From Cytophaga aurantiaca DSM 3654 (GTDB lineage Bacteria; Bacteroidota; Bacteroidia; Cytophagales; Cytophagaceae): a stretch of 64,000 nucleotides of DNA. Positions within the stretch are counted from its first letter, which is position 1. Each line of letters begins with the position of its first letter. The translations under genes and the position numbers were made by a program. Below the pieces are notes generated by a model, which had not been told where the DNA came from, searched no databases, and saw nothing but the letters and a program-made list of their open reading frames with translations. This document shows, piece by piece, positions 27,255-57,773 of the stretch. Location of the stretch: contig NZ_KB903654.1 of the NCBI RefSeq assembly GCF_000379725.1, positions 62,001-126,000 of the forward strand, given 5' to 3'.

Positions 27255-27524
27255 CTACTTACGCTTCTTATTTTTCTCCAGCATTTGGATTACATCTTCA
27301 TGTTTATAATAAAGCGTGCCTCCAATTTTGGTATAAGGAAGCGTACCGATAATTCTTAGGTGTTGGAGCGTGCCGGGTGAGATTGCTAAGAGCTTTCGCA
27401 CTTCCTGAGATTTTAACCAGGGTTTCTGTTGGTTGGATGTGATGGAAAAAAGTTCTTTTAATTCATTTAAAAGTTCGGTTTTGAAGTTTTTAAGATCTTC
27501 TTTAGTAATAATTTCTACTGCCAT
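27255..27524 (-). CDS. Excisionase-like HTH DNA-binding protein
   Basis: 89 residues. A helical N-terminal half is followed by WLKSQEVRKLLAISPGTLQHLRIIGTLPYTKIGGTLYYKHEDV, the MerR-like winged HTH (HTH_17) of Bacteroidota excisionases and accessory proteins. It is the first gene of the three-gene element module and lies 15 bp upstream of the replication-like gene. Directional control of excision is the expected role but has not been shown for this protein. Confidence 0.82.
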   Translation of the reverse strand: MAVEIITKEDLKNFKTELLNELKELFSITSNQQKPWLKSQEVRKLLAISPGTLQHLRIIGTLPYTKIGGTLYYKHEDVIQMLEKNKKRK

Positions 27525-27772
27525 ATTTGTATGTTTAAAATGTATGGCTCAAAAAGAGATAAAAATACTCAAGTAAAACAGTTACAGGGGTTCTACAACC
27601 CTTTGCAATCTTGATTGATTTACAGGCAGATACATGTAAACATTTTTGCAATTATTTTATTTGAGGTAAAAAAAATGGATATTTGTATATAATTAAAATT
27701 AATGGAATGAATTAAAGAAAAAAGAGATATATAAATATTGTTGGCTATAAGCTAATTAACTGTACTTAGAAA

Positions 27773-27925
27773 ACGACCAATTTTAATAAGCATCACAGGA
27801 GAATTAGACTGAAGCTCACGCTATGCGTGGGCATTGGTTGTTCTTGTGATGCGGGTGCTTGGTCGTACCTCTAAGACGGAATGTATCGATGTCCCGCGCT
27901 ATTTTTTTTAAAACAATGCCGGGAC
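27773..27925 (+). ncRNA. Strongly structured intergenic element, function unknown
   Basis: Nested complementarity is visible: ACGACCAA (27773-27780) with TTGGTCGT (27859-27866); GCATCACAGGAG (27790-27801) with TTCTTGTGATGC (27841-27852); GCTCACGC (27814-27821) with GCGTGGGC (27825-27832, 3-base loop); and a separate GTCCCG (27891-27896) with CGGGAC (27920-27925) around a T8-A4 loop. It lies between the divergent excisionase-like gene and the alpha-CTD-like gene. Candidates are a regulatory RNA, a single-strand origin or a transfer origin. Strand is a guess, set by the gene that follows. Confidence 0.45.
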
Positions 27926-27947
27926 GCAAACCGTTAAATTATTTACA

Positions 27948-28175
27948 ATGGACGTACCGACTGAAATCTTACACATACCCTATAAAGAATTACCGATAAG
28001 TAGCGGTATGAAACGCTTTTTTACGTTTCACAATATCCCTATTCTTGAAAAATTATTACAGATTCCACCCAAAGAGTTATTGGAGATGAAATGGTTTAAT
28101 GCAAAGCTATACTACGAGCTTACATGCTTGCTTGAAGAGCATGGATTGATGAAGGATTGGAATAAATTAGAATAA
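27948..28175 (+). CDS. Stand-alone protein resembling the RNA polymerase alpha C-terminal domain
   Basis: 75 residues. LPISSGMKRFFTFHNIPILEKLLQIPPKELLEMKWFNAKLYYELTCLLEEHGL has the pattern of alpha-CTD: an I-x-x-L-x-IS start, two helix-hairpin-helix units, and the terminal helix. No alpha N-terminal domain is present. Such small proteins occur in Bacteroidota mobile elements. It could contact DNA or compete with the host alpha subunit; this is inference. Its start lies 22 bp after the last hairpin of the structured element. Confidence 0.55.
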   Translation: MDVPTEILHIPYKELPISSGMKRFFTFHNIPILEKLLQIPPKELLEMKWFNAKLYYELTCLLEEHGLMKDWNKLE

Positions 28176-28179
28176 CAAC

Positions 28180-29217
28180 TTATTCAATACTTTTAATAAC
28201 ATTCTCTAAAAGTTCCCTCACTGATTCCTTGGTCCTATCTTCAACATTATAATATTTGTTATGAAGGCTGTCAAAAGATATCTGATCTGTCTTTTTTGAA
28301 CAAAATTTTTCACTCAATACATGGAGAATATCCATCTGTACTTTGTTCGTGACAATTCCTGATTTGTTCAATAACTTAAATAGGTAAGCGGTTTGAGCAA
28401 CCGACATGGATGTTTCTATTTTGTGCACTCCTTTTGAAAGAATGGATTGTTGTTCGGGATTGTATTTCTTTTGCTTTTTACGGCATTGCTTAATTTCTAT
28501 ATTGATCCATTCATCCAATATTGGTTTTATATTAGGATATTCTGGACTAAACGGATTACCGATTTTTATTGGAATGGAACTAAAACGTTTGGTATAACTT
28601 AATAATACCTGCTCTTGGACGTATGGATTATCTTCCTGATGCAACTCTCCTATTATTTCGCTTACAATATATTTGAAAAAAGTTGGCGAATTGAAATTTT
28701 GTGAAATAAGAAAACTTATTACTACATCTTCTTTTAGAGAATTAATTGATAAAGAACAATCGCTTAGCCAGTTTTTCCAGAACTGGGAAACATAACTTAC
28801 AAAATGAATTGTGCAGTATTTGCATTTCTCTGGTTCAATTAATGGTGCTATATGTTTAAACAACCGTTCATTAAAATTCGTTTTTATTGCATGTTTTATT
28901 TCTTCTATAAAATCAGCAAATTGATTAAATAGACTATGTTTTCCAAGGTCAGAAATAACAAGCATTTCATTCGTAAACCTTTGAAAATTGGTTTCTAAAA
29001 AATATAGAACCTTATCGCATTCTTTACATATTGAATCATTTTTTTTATATTCAATAAGTGCGAACTGATGATTCTGAATATACAGCTTAATCTCTTCTTC
29101 TGTTCGTAGTTTAAAAGCTGTTTCTCTAATCTCCTCAATAATAGTATTTACTTCGTCTTTGATTTCGTCACTATTATTCTCGATTAGGTTGTCGAAAAAT
29201 TCCAAATTGTATTTCAA
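28180..29217 (-). CDS. Conserved-looking helical protein of Bacteroidota mobile elements, RteC-like tail
   Basis: 345 residues, no signal peptide or membrane helix. Two CxxC-like pairs occur (SICKECDK about 63-68; EKCKYCTIH about 129-137). The C-terminal 80 residues (SMSVAQTAYLFKLLNKSGIVT ... NKYYNVEDRTKESVRELLENV) resemble the C-terminus of RteC-type and similar transposon proteins. It is convergent with the alpha-CTD-like gene (4-bp gap). I cannot name a function; element regulation is possible. Confidence 0.55.
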   Translation of the reverse strand: MKYNLEFFDNLIENNSDEIKDEVNTIIEEIRETAFKLRTEEEIKLYIQNHQFALIEYKKNDSICKECDKVLYFLETNFQRFTNEMLVISDLGKHSLFNQFADFIEEIKHAIKTNFNERLFKHIAPLIEPEKCKYCTIHFVSYVSQFWKNWLSDCSLSINSLKEDVVISFLISQNFNSPTFFKYIVSEIIGELHQEDNPYVQEQVLLSYTKRFSSIPIKIGNPFSPEYPNIKPILDEWINIEIKQCRKKQKKYNPEQQSILSKGVHKIETSMSVAQTAYLFKLLNKSGIVTNKVQMDILHVLSEKFCSKKTDQISFDSLHNKYYNVEDRTKESVRELLENVIKSIE

Positions 29218-55345: not shown

Positions 55346-56566
55346 CTACCCCAATTTTTGTTTCAACATATTCATATCGTCGCGCACTTTCTTCTCTACT
55401 ACTTTAGCATATATTTGAGTAGTACGTATGCTGCTATGGCCTAATAATTTACTGACTGTCTCCATAGGCACTCCATTTGTTAATGTTATAGTAGTAGCAA
55501 ATGTATGGCGGGCTAGATGAAAAGTTAGATTTTTACCAATGCTACACAGGTCTGCTATTTCTTTCAAATAACTATTTAATCGTTGATTAGAAATATTCGG
55601 AAACAACTTTCCTTCAGCCAATGCTTTGGGATGTAACTCATATTTTTCAATTAAAGCCAAAGCTTTCGGTAAAACAGGAATACGAACAGAATTGTCTGTT
55701 TTCTGTCTATTTGTATACAGCCATAATTCACCATCTATTCCAAGGCTTATATTTTCATTACTGAGATTCATTACGTCAATATAACTTAGCCCTGTATAAC
55801 AACTAAAAACAAATAGATCTTTAACTTGCTGAAGTCTTTGAATGGAAAATTCCTTATTTTCAATTTTCATTAGTTCTTCAGCTGTCAAAAATTCTCTCGT
55901 TGTCTTAACAAAGGTAGGTTTGAATTTTGCAAATGGGTCTCTTAAAAGCCATTCGTTGCGGATAGCCAGGTTTATCATTTTGCGTAATCTTTCAATATGT
56001 TTCATTACAGTATTTTGTCCGCATGGCTTATGATGGTCCACCGGTTGATACCCTTTAACAAACATTTCAAAGTCAAAAATAAATTTATAATTGAGCTGTG
56101 ATAGAAAAATGTCCGAGGTGTGTAACTTCTCTTTAAGGAAGAGACTAACATACTTTTGGGTCGTATGATAGTTTTTCATTGTTCCCCACTCCAGTGTCTC
56201 TTTTAACTCTGTATTATGGTAATGTATTAATGACATCAATGAATGCTCTCTTTCATCTTTCCCCTGATACATGTTTTTTATTGCTTCTGCAGTTACTAGT
56301 CTTTTATCTGCCATTAACTGTTGCTGACAATTTAAAATCTGCAGACGAACCTGGTCTATATAATTATTGAGTGTCCGCATTTCTTCTTTTGTTCCCTTTG
56401 CCTGTCCTTTCTCTGAATTCCAATTCTCCGGATTAATACTTCTTTTGATAGAAATTTCTACTCTTGCTCCATCAACTGTAAGTCTTGCCCAGATTGGGGC
56501 TTCGCCATTTTTAACTTTTGATTTGTTAATCCAAAACAGAATTGAGAATGTGTTTTTTACTTGCAT
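55346..56566 (-). CDS. CTnDOT-like tyrosine recombinase (island integrase)
   Basis: 406 residues. N-terminal arm-binding part (SILFWINKSKVKNGEAPIWARL), SAM-like core-binding part (about 105-205), catalytic part from about 215. Catalytic residues: HLARHTFAT (H/R, about 347-351), LGHSSIRTTQIYAKV (His and Tyr about 370-381). The first catalytic Arg is replaced by Ser in CYTGLSYIDV (about 258), the substitution known from the CTnDOT integrase. It points away from the tRNA cluster, whose nearest 3' end is 270 bp from its start, and the gap holds repeated arm-type sites. Confidence 0.92.
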   Translation of the reverse strand: MQVKNTFSILFWINKSKVKNGEAPIWARLTVDGARVEISIKRSINPENWNSEKGQAKGTKEEMRTLNNYIDQVRLQILNCQQQLMADKRLVTAEAIKNMYQGKDEREHSLMSLIHYHNTELKETLEWGTMKNYHTTQKYVSLFLKEKLHTSDIFLSQLNYKFIFDFEMFVKGYQPVDHHKPCGQNTVMKHIERLRKMINLAIRNEWLLRDPFAKFKPTFVKTTREFLTAEELMKIENKEFSIQRLQQVKDLFVFSCYTGLSYIDVMNLSNENISLGIDGELWLYTNRQKTDNSVRIPVLPKALALIEKYELHPKALAEGKLFPNISNQRLNSYLKEIADLCSIGKNLTFHLARHTFATTITLTNGVPMETVSKLLGHSSIRTTQIYAKVVEKKVRDDMNMLKQKLG

Positions 56567-56812: not shown

Positions 56813-56835
56813 GAAGAGAATTGCTTCTCTCAATG

Positions 56836-56910
56836 TCGGGGTGGCAAGATTCGAACTTGCGACCTCCTGGTCCCAAACCAGGCGCGATGACCGGACTACG
56901 CTACACCCCG
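56836..56910 (-). tRNA. tRNA-Pro(TGG), copy 1
   Basis: Acceptor CGGGGTG pairs with CACCCCG, T-arm GCAAG-TTCGAAT-CTTGC, anticodon stem CCTGG-TTTGGGA-CCAGG with anticodon TGG. No 3' CCA is encoded; the discriminator base is A. It is the tRNA nearest the integrase and its 3' end faces the island. Identical to copy 2 at 57533-57607 over the whole gene. Confidence 0.95.
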
Positions 56911-56969
56911 AACAATAAAAACAACAACACAAACAAGACAAAAAAAGGAACAACACTGTTCCTTACATG

Positions 56970-57043
56970 TGACCCCGAAGCGATTCGAACGCTTGACCTA
57001 CTGCTTAGAAGGCAGTTGCTCTATCCAGCTGAGCTACGGAGTC
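56970..57043 (-). tRNA. tRNA-Arg(TCT)
   Basis: Acceptor GACTCCG pairs with CGGGGTC (one G-T), D-arm GCTCAGCTGGATAGAGC, anticodon arm ACTGC-CTTCTAA-GCAGT with anticodon TCT, T-arm AAGCG-TTCGAAT-CGCTT, discriminator A. It has a full tRNA structure, in contrast with the four T-loop-truncated units directly upstream (57074-57420), which share its 5' leader and D-arm. Confidence 0.95.
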
Positions 57044-57463
57044 AATACTTTTTATTCTTTCTAAACGTTCTTCATTCGAACGCTTGACCTTCCCGTCTTA
57101 AACGGGATGCTCAACATTCCAGCTGAGCTACGGAGTCAATACTTTTTATTCTTTCTAAACGTTCTTCATTCGAACGCTTGACCTTCCCGTCTTAAACGGG
57201 ATGCTCAACATTCCAGCTGAGCTACGGAGTCAATACTTTTTATTCTTTCTAAACGTTCTTCATTCGAACGCTTGACCTTCCCGTCTTAAAACGGGATGCT
57301 CAACATTCCAGCTGAGCTACGGAGTCAATACTTTTTATTCTTTCTAAACGTTCTTCATTCGAACGCTTGACCTTCCCGTCTTAAACGGGATGCTCAACAT
57401 TCCAGCTGAGCTACGGAGTCATTATGTACTTTCTAGCTGAACTACAGAGTCAATACTTTATTT
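57044..57463 (-). repeat. 94-bp tandem array of T-loop-truncated tRNA-like units
   Basis: Four units: 57074-57137, 57168-57231, 57262-57326 (one extra A) and 57357-57420, each preceded on the minus strand by the same 30-bp leader, which also precedes tRNA-Arg. A fifth, degenerate half lies at 57421-57463. Each unit has acceptor 5' strand GACTCCG, D-arm, an anticodon arm TCCCG-TTTAAGA-CGGGA and T-arm 5' half through TTCGAAT, then jumps to the leader of the next unit; the 3' T-stem and acceptor are missing. The anticodon (TAA) differs from tRNA-Arg. Confidence 0.85.
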
Positions 57464-57499
57464 ATCAACCTACTACCATTCTGTAGGTTATTTAAACAA

Positions 57500-57526
57500 A
57501 AAAAGTTTCAAGTGAACCTGAAACTT
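57500..57526 (-). terminator. Hairpin terminator after tRNA-Pro copy 2
   Basis: Read on the minus strand, AAAGTTTCAGG and its complement around TTCA are followed by a run of T. It lies 7 bp past the 3' end of tRNA-Pro copy 2 and should separate it from the tandem array downstream. Confidence 0.65.
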
Positions 57527-57532
57527 TAAAAG

Positions 57533-57607
57533 TCGGGGTGGCAAGATTCGAACTTGCGACCTCCTGGTCCCAAACCAGGCGCGATGACCGGACTACGCTA
57601 CACCCCG
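57533..57607 (-). tRNA. tRNA-Pro(TGG), copy 2
   Basis: Same sequence as copy 1 (56836-56910) over all 75 bases including the discriminator; anticodon TGG. The pair brackets tRNA-Arg and the tandem array, suggesting that a duplication of the Pro gene accompanied the growth of the cluster. Confidence 0.95.
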
Positions 57608-57686
57608 AACGAGAAGGAAACCTTCACTTATTTAAAGAACGTGTACTACTTTCGTAGAATTTCAACAACTATTTTAAGCTGCTCTG

Positions 57687-57773
57687 TAGAGAGGGAGGGA
57701 TTCGAACCCTCGGTACGGTCGCCCGTACGGCAGTTTAGCAAACGGCTACTTTCGGCCTCTCAGTCACCTCTCC
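57687..57773 (-). tRNA. tRNA-Ser(GCT)
   Basis: Acceptor GGAGAGG pairs with CCTCTCT (one G-T), long variable arm with GTACGG/CCGTAC pairing, T-arm GAGGG-TTCGAAT-CCCTC, anticodon loop with GCT (GTTTGCTAAAC). 87 bases without CCA. It is the first tRNA of the cluster in transcription order. Confidence 0.95.

Follow-up and report, generated by a model that had tools for sequence, protein, structure and literature searches.

A structured RNA with two competing predicted folds, a probable transcription attenuator ahead of diverse genes in Bacteroidota

Results and Discussion

The window analyzed here, a 64,000-nt stretch of the Cytophaga aurantiaca DSM 3654 genome, carries at 27738-27928 one copy of an element that the pattern of base changes among its relatives marks as a structured RNA on the + strand. 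The element probably acts in cis as a 5' leader RNA that attenuates transcription. Its two folds, their conservation and the U-run can be read directly from the sequence, as can, for the family as a whole, a promoter-like box and the gene order; from these we infer transcription of the element, actual termination, the default state, and a choice between the folds made by a shared ligand or protein via conserved loops of the rod described below.

Fold and Extent of the Element

A first-pass annotation of this DNA had placed a multi-stem element at 27773-27925 (153 nt). On the + strand this segment folded at -55.8 kcal/mol (z = -5.6), a value equaled by none of 200 shuffles, and the - strand fold was weaker (z = -4.6). 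The longer span 27736-27930 reached -72.1 kcal/mol (z = -6.4), and the covariance model matched 27738-27928, although the window copy was one of the three founders of the model and its own match is thus by construction. The fold reported earlier was therefore real, but the element proved to be larger. Its GC content, said to exceed that of the surroundings, indeed did so, with 0.458 for 27773-27925 and 0.429 for 27738-27928, compared with 0.246 and 0.340 in the 191-nt segments flanking the element on its 5' and 3' sides, respectively. The four stems first described, three of them nested, were all present: P1b, P2 and P3a plus P3b are nested, and the fourth is a separate 3' stem (P4). The outer stem of the rod, the 5' hairpin and an alternative pairing by the U-run had been missed. 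The features of the region are as follows.

27255-27524, - strand: divergent HTH_17 (excisionase-like) gene (PF12728, E = 1.3e-9)
27738-27928, + strand: whole structured RNA
27740-27756, + strand: P0, a 7-bp hairpin on the 5' side (in 47 copies, all 7 pairs show two-sided changes and 75% of cells are paired)
27760-27879, + strand: rod P1-P2-P3, the proposed antiterminator state
27760-27770/27870-27879, + strand: P1a, outer stem of the rod
27773-27780/27859-27866, + strand: P1b, 8 bp
27790-27800/27842-27852, + strand: P2, 11 bp with one G-U pair
27807-27812/27834-27839, + strand: P3a, 6 bp
27814-27821/27825-27832, + strand: P3b, 8 bp
27825-27844, + strand: X'ext, the P3 3' strand, which doubles as the predicted terminator 5' arm (pairing with 27878-27899 at -24.1 kcal/mol)
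27878-27899, + strand: linker plus X (X = 27893-27899), the predicted terminator 3' arm
27902-27909, + strand: U8 run, two nt past the predicted terminator stem
27890-27899/27918-27926, + strand: P4, spanning the U-run and formable only after read-through (82-85% of cells paired and 9 of 9 pairs two-sided in 47 copies)
27948-28175, + strand: alpha-CTD-like gene, 75 aa, itself without a Pfam match

Covariation Supports an RNA

The covariance search that had been proposed as a check was run, and the compensatory changes found in the relatives support an RNA. In an alignment of 47 copies, drawn from 62 by omitting 15 partial or weak matches (L045, L048, L051, L052, L055, L075, L077, L082, L086 and L088-L093), two-sided changes occurred in 55 of the 58 base pairs. 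The alignment contained 562 two-sided cells compared with 165 ± 12 in shuffles, and 89.0% of its cells were paired compared with 35-44% for slid partners; fitting it to the model favors structure, yet both values remained far from those of the controls. Within the rod, helices 2, 3, 4 and 6 were 92-98% paired and helix 5 (P3a) 74%, with two-sided changes in 39 of the 42 pairs. A 30-copy set displayed such changes in 52 of the 58 pairs. Among 81 copies selected with a DNA pattern in which parts of the rod are fixed, a set thereby biased for those parts, 84.1% of cells were paired and 40 of the 58 pairs carried two-sided changes. L102 (at the place of L061), L024 and L097, whose places were already represented, were not counted twice in the later set.

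G-U pairs were numerous on the + strand across the copies. Conservation also extended to unpaired positions, namely the loop between P1a and P1b (AA of GAAA on one side and CC of nCCUC on the other) and an AUUU stretch together with the GG of GGGU opposite it.

A Predicted Terminator Competes with the Rod

The first-pass annotation had recognized no tRNA, riboswitch or terminator layout. The first two statements hold, ARAGORN and Rfam giving no tRNA or tmRNA at the element and Rfam no family; the third was wrong in part, because the 3' half can adopt a terminator fold in competition with the noted stems. The P3b 3' strand, GCGUGGG, is complementary to CCCACGC directly before the U-run. Across the 47 copies, 93.6% of cells were paired in the columns of this helix, X'/X. 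Two-sided cells numbered 13, compared with 2.3 ± 1.7 in shuffles (reached by none of 500), two-sided pairs numbered 4, compared with 1.5 (reached by 10 of 500), and the covariation score was reached by none of 500. Paired variants were exemplified by GCGUAGG with CCUACGC in L065 and GCGCGGG with CCCGCGC in L053. When the strands were slid by +2, 72.4% of the cells were paired, without two-sided changes, and other slides gave 27-55%; in the 81 pattern-selected copies the +2 slide gave 83.4%, such high pairing being due to the GC-repetitive nature of the strands. The latter set held only 2 two-sided X'/X pairs (reached by 197 of 500 shuffles), partly because the selection pattern fixed this region, and its cell count and score were reached by none of 500.

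The alternative pairing extends through the P3a 3' strand and the linker, so that 20 nt pair with 22 nt, in 15-20 bp in the examples. With kinship ignored, the alternative stem averaged -22.5 kcal/mol in the 47 copies versus -16.0 ± 0.45 when arms were exchanged between copies, and -20.4 versus -17.65 ± 0.25 in the 79 distinct members of the 81; its outer part alone likewise surpassed exchanged arms. A run of five or more U occurred within 14 nt past X in 43 of the 47 copies and in 64 of the 81, and the linker before X held not even four U in a row in any copy. Folded alone, the segment from X' to X closed with at least 5 X'X pairs in 46 of the 47 copies and in 78 of the 81. Since the P3 3' strand, which is common to both folds, also pairs before the U-run, nearly every copy possesses a predicted intrinsic terminator that excludes the rod; the rod and the predicted terminator stem are, as modeled, mutually exclusive. 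At equilibrium the rod was favored by 10 kcal/mol in the window and by 16 and 9 kcal/mol on average, so termination would need a factor or kinetics.

RNAalifold, run on columns aligned to the rod, yielded no structure for the 5' half; for the 3' half it yielded none with the 47-copy columns and only 5 X'X pairs with the 81-copy columns. Pairing of the P0 5' strand with X was discarded, as its longest helix (3.48 against 3.31 ± 0.10 in shuffles) gave no clear support. A further pairing linked the P2 5' strand to the strand just before P1a (its longest helix measured 4.89, compared with 3.81 ± 0.16, in the 47 copies and 5.21, compared with 4.11 ± 0.12, in the 81 copies), and this pairing may represent a pseudoknot or a 5' hairpin of the terminator state.

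Promoter-Like Box and Gene Order

The sequence TAnnTTTG, which we take to be the -7 box of Bacteroidota promoters, occurred upstream on the + strand in 126 of 167 regions (17 on the - strand; about 24 expected from single-base shuffles), and 82 sites fell into one 10-nt bin, 21-30 nt before the RNA. For the window copy, no exact TAnnTTTG was present in 27525-27745, where only one-mismatch forms such as GATATTTG at 27678 were seen. Gene order was counted at 170 loci with ORFs called by a simple script rather than a gene finder; 12 loci lacked a next gene of at least 80 aa, and in the remaining 158 this gene was co-directional in 132 and opposed in 26. The window itself was counted as opposed because its 75-aa gene lies below the 80-aa floor. 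In the 42 co-directional loci of the 62-copy set, the next gene was a median of 25.5 nt away.

These counts bear on an alternative in which the element is an independent small RNA, terminated at the U-run and acting in trans, with the adjoining genes as mere neighbors. Such an RNA would account for the promoter-like box of its own, the terminator-like stem with a U-run, the 1-9 copies per genome in five genomes, and the gene starts lying about 150-920 nt off in SusC-like loci. We nevertheless regard it as unlikely. P4 is conserved with two-sided changes even though its 3' strand lies beyond the U-run, which argues that the read-through RNA matters, and the predominantly co-directional and close next gene is at odds with mere neighborhood. 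Furthermore, promoter boxes were not in excess between the RNA and distant ORFs: at 60 loci with the next ORF 100-520 nt away, 6 TAnnTTTG sites lay between RNA and ORF (9.2 expected), compared with 105 upstream of the RNA (9.0 expected).

Distribution in Bacteroidota and on Mobile Elements

When 390 genomes of the order to which the window belongs were queried with the alpha-CTD-like protein, four relatives were identified in addition to the window's own copy. Those at L003 (58% identity) and L004 (38%) had the same RNA upstream (z = -6.4 and -8.6, respectively). At L005 and L006 the RNA was absent from the stretch read, and both genomes (G368 and G204) were not among the model matches; there, the alpha-CTD-like genes have further small conserved genes and one for a large conserved protein as neighbors. 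The same protein query against genome contigs and viral contigs returned 67 and 8 pattern stretches, respectively, none of which was a relative.

With six candidates scored per genome in each search, a covariance model built on three sequences matched in 41 of the 390 genomes of the order, and the model rebuilt on the 47 copies matched in 70 of 395 Bacteroidota genomes. A deep search of five genomes revealed 1, 6, 7, 7 and 9 copies, the single copy being that of the window's genome. Scanning named genomes with an exact DNA pattern, the one search that covered genomes outside the phylum, gave at least 119 stretches. Among the matches listed, 80 loci all bore Bacteroidota names, as judged from their titles, and included Flavobacterium, Chryseobacterium, Muricauda, Mucilaginibacter, Pedobacter, Dyadobacter, Marinoscillum, Bacteroidales and others. 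One copy resides on a mobilizable plasmid of Rhizosphaericola mali, typed MOBP, between a replication gene and a hypothetical gene starting 46 nt later. Querying plasmids with the window stretch led nowhere, as did a search of solved structures.

A single-strand or transfer origin had been suggested at first. More generally, the element might be DNA acting as a single strand, as a transfer origin, a single-strand origin or a recombination site of a mobile element; the AAA (DnaC-like) and HTH_17 genes adjoining the window copy, the integrase about 27 kb from it, and the copy next to a replication gene on a mobilizable plasmid would be in keeping with this. However, many of the + strand pairs are G-U and become C-A mismatches on the other strand, many copies precede TonB, sigma or secreted-protein genes, and neither the exact pattern in viral contigs nor one copy queried against phages gave a match; the U-run and the promoter-like box also fit an RNA. 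The compensatory pairs rich in + strand G-U, the co-directional gene in 132 of 158 loci and the box common upstream leave an origin unsupported, and we consider any such DNA function highly improbable.

Genes Flanking the RNA

In the window, the RNA ends 19 nt before the start codon of the alpha-CTD-like gene (27948). This arrangement recurs elsewhere, and homologues of the RNA precede other genes, which fits the first-pass proposal of a regulatory RNA acting on the alpha-CTD-like gene. Six of eight aligned small relatives of the encoded protein match RNA_pol_A_CTD (E up to 0.1, best 8.8e-6), whereas the window protein does not. The order HTH_17-type gene, RNA, alpha-CTD-like gene was found in the window, L096 (on the same contig as L003), L004, L037 (which holds the place of L010) and L179, whose HTH protein has its closest relatives in L037, L096 and the window; at L093, too, the RNA occurs with an alpha-CTD-like gene. 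A fixed tie of the RNA to this gene was rejected, since it holds in a minority of copies only.

A small divergent HTH gene upstream of the RNA recurs: among the 87 genes scanned of 110 divergent upstream ones (those at most 400 nt away and no longer than 900 bases), 44 had an HTH_3 match and 5 an HTH_17 match, the latter being the type seen in the window. Downstream, 106 of 120 listed stretches were scanned, and a TonB plug domain was found in 33, thioredoxin-like domains in 5 and sigma-70 region 4 in 4; the remaining genes were diverse (laminin-G, collagen, RHS, DNA methylase and others).

Several minor features of these neighborhoods were also observed. Just past the alpha-CTD-like gene, a protein family of about 345-403 aa is encoded in the window (28180-29217, - strand), L096, L004 and L037; its members in the window and L004 matched nothing in Pfam or NCBIfam above cut-off. 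The idea that the 345-aa neighbor is RteC was discarded, as neither Pfam nor NCBIfam supported it, nor did they for two relatives. In L059, L060, L062, L063, L066, L067, L068, L074 and L079, the RNA stands before a highly conserved protein of 85-86 aa (METN/METT start, then KRVAVxLxEDT-like), present in several copies per genome; L081 has a shortened version. A second conserved hairpin-like motif, approximately GGCCCTC(T/A)...GCGACCAAACTAG or CGTCGCCAAACTAG...AGAG(G/A)ACC, was seen between the RNA and the SusC-like start codon, a few tens of nt before the latter, in L122, L163, L200, L128, L133 and L134.

Proposed Mechanism

In the proposed attenuation, the nascent RNA would adopt one of two exclusive folds. 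In the rod state, the 5' half would hold the P3 3' strand, no terminator would form and RNA polymerase would continue; P4 would then close over the U-run after read-through and would mark or hold the read-through state. In the stop state, the P3 3' strand and the linker/X would form a stem of about 15-20 bp before the U-run, and transcription would end ahead of the gene. The attenuator would in this way set the level of the alpha-CTD-like protein in the window, and elsewhere the same switch would stand before SusC-like transporters, sigma factors, secreted proteins and others. Leader-peptide attenuation was rejected in view of the rarity of short AUG-started ORFs, those of at least 6 codons starting in the first 70 nt being found in 4 of 47 and 5 of 81 copies.

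The choice between the states would be made by a shared ligand or protein recognized via the conserved internal loops of the rod. The conservation of these loops in copies that precede unrelated genes makes a phylum-wide ligand or protein appear more likely than gene-specific regulators, while the diversity of the downstream genes makes a single signal not obvious. We put forward only tentatively, as somewhat short of an even chance, that the family is a phylum-wide class of RNA sensors, in which the rod would read a common Bacteroidota signal (a small molecule or a general transcription factor) and strand exchange would gate transcription into nutrient-uptake, sigma-factor, surface-protein and mobile-element genes. 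A translational switch, in which the fold governs ribosome access rather than termination, is very hard to credit, for although the start codon lies about 10-40 nt past P4 in many copies, no tested helix reaches it, it is about 150-920 nt away in SusC-like loci, and nearly every copy has a U-run after the alternative stem.

Relation to Known Systems

Terminator/antiterminator riboswitches and protein-controlled attenuators have two exclusive folds, one of which is an intrinsic terminator before a gene, and conserved internal loops. The present element resembles them in its two exclusive folds, predicted terminator and conserved internal loops, but differs in having no Rfam family match and in placing one RNA class before very diverse genes. 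For this element Rfam 15 gave no match, with only chance-level hits, in the window at the gathering threshold and, under permissive settings, in 27500-28200 and the loci of 40 relatives (20 from an initial 30 RNA loci and 20 from 28 added later).

Candidate structured RNAs from Bacteroidetes have been described before. According to the available parts of Weinberg (2010; PMC2864571), the orphan motifs Flavo-1, Bacteroidales-1 and GUCCY-hairpin are candidates without a given function; the first two carry Rfam numbers, whereas our element matches no Rfam model, and GUCCY-hairpin, which carries none, is likewise a Bacteroidetes candidate, known here by description only. Fremin and Bhatt (2021; PMC8040213) report Bacteroidetes candidates from human microbiomes, among them HMP2_1032 (106 bp), most often near TonB, and give 508 candidates located directly upstream of genes; by its description alone, HMP2_1032 is set apart as palindromic and shorter than the element of about 190 nt, although their candidates may overlap with the present family. 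In Flavobacterium psychrophilum, 64 structured 5' transcribed regions, some of them kept in other genera and lacking Rfam hits, are reported (PMC9723704), and a copy of the present family may be among them. RteR, a 90-nt trans RNA of a Bacteroides conjugative transposon, and DonS, one of a family of 78-128-nt antisense RNAs at susC loci (PMC7366714), share the phylum and the mobile-element or susC setting, but the window-type element is on the sense strand, about 190 nt long and capable of two folds. In the literature searched, including PMC6429828, nothing was recognized as this RNA family, the candidates of PMC8040213, PMC9723704 and PMC2864571 being compared by description only, and none of six group names was found in the available text of PMC11109978; this literature negative is weak evidence of novelty.

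The family is without an Rfam 15 match, yet at least one copy occurs in 70 of 395 sampled Bacteroidota genomes. If it acts as proposed, it would put a shared control by premature termination over SusC-like uptake systems and other Bacteroidota genes, and its conserved loops, predicted terminator and clear read-out would make it a target for orphan-switch studies. The window and plasmid copies indicate that mobile-type elements carry the same RNA, in the window before the alpha-CTD-like gene. Also in the window, a tyrosine integrase with an arm-binding domain is encoded at 55346-56566 (- strand) beside four tRNA genes (56835-57773), two of which are tRNA-Pro(tgg) with equal Rfam scores; the integrase and the tRNA cluster perhaps form one end of an integrated island.
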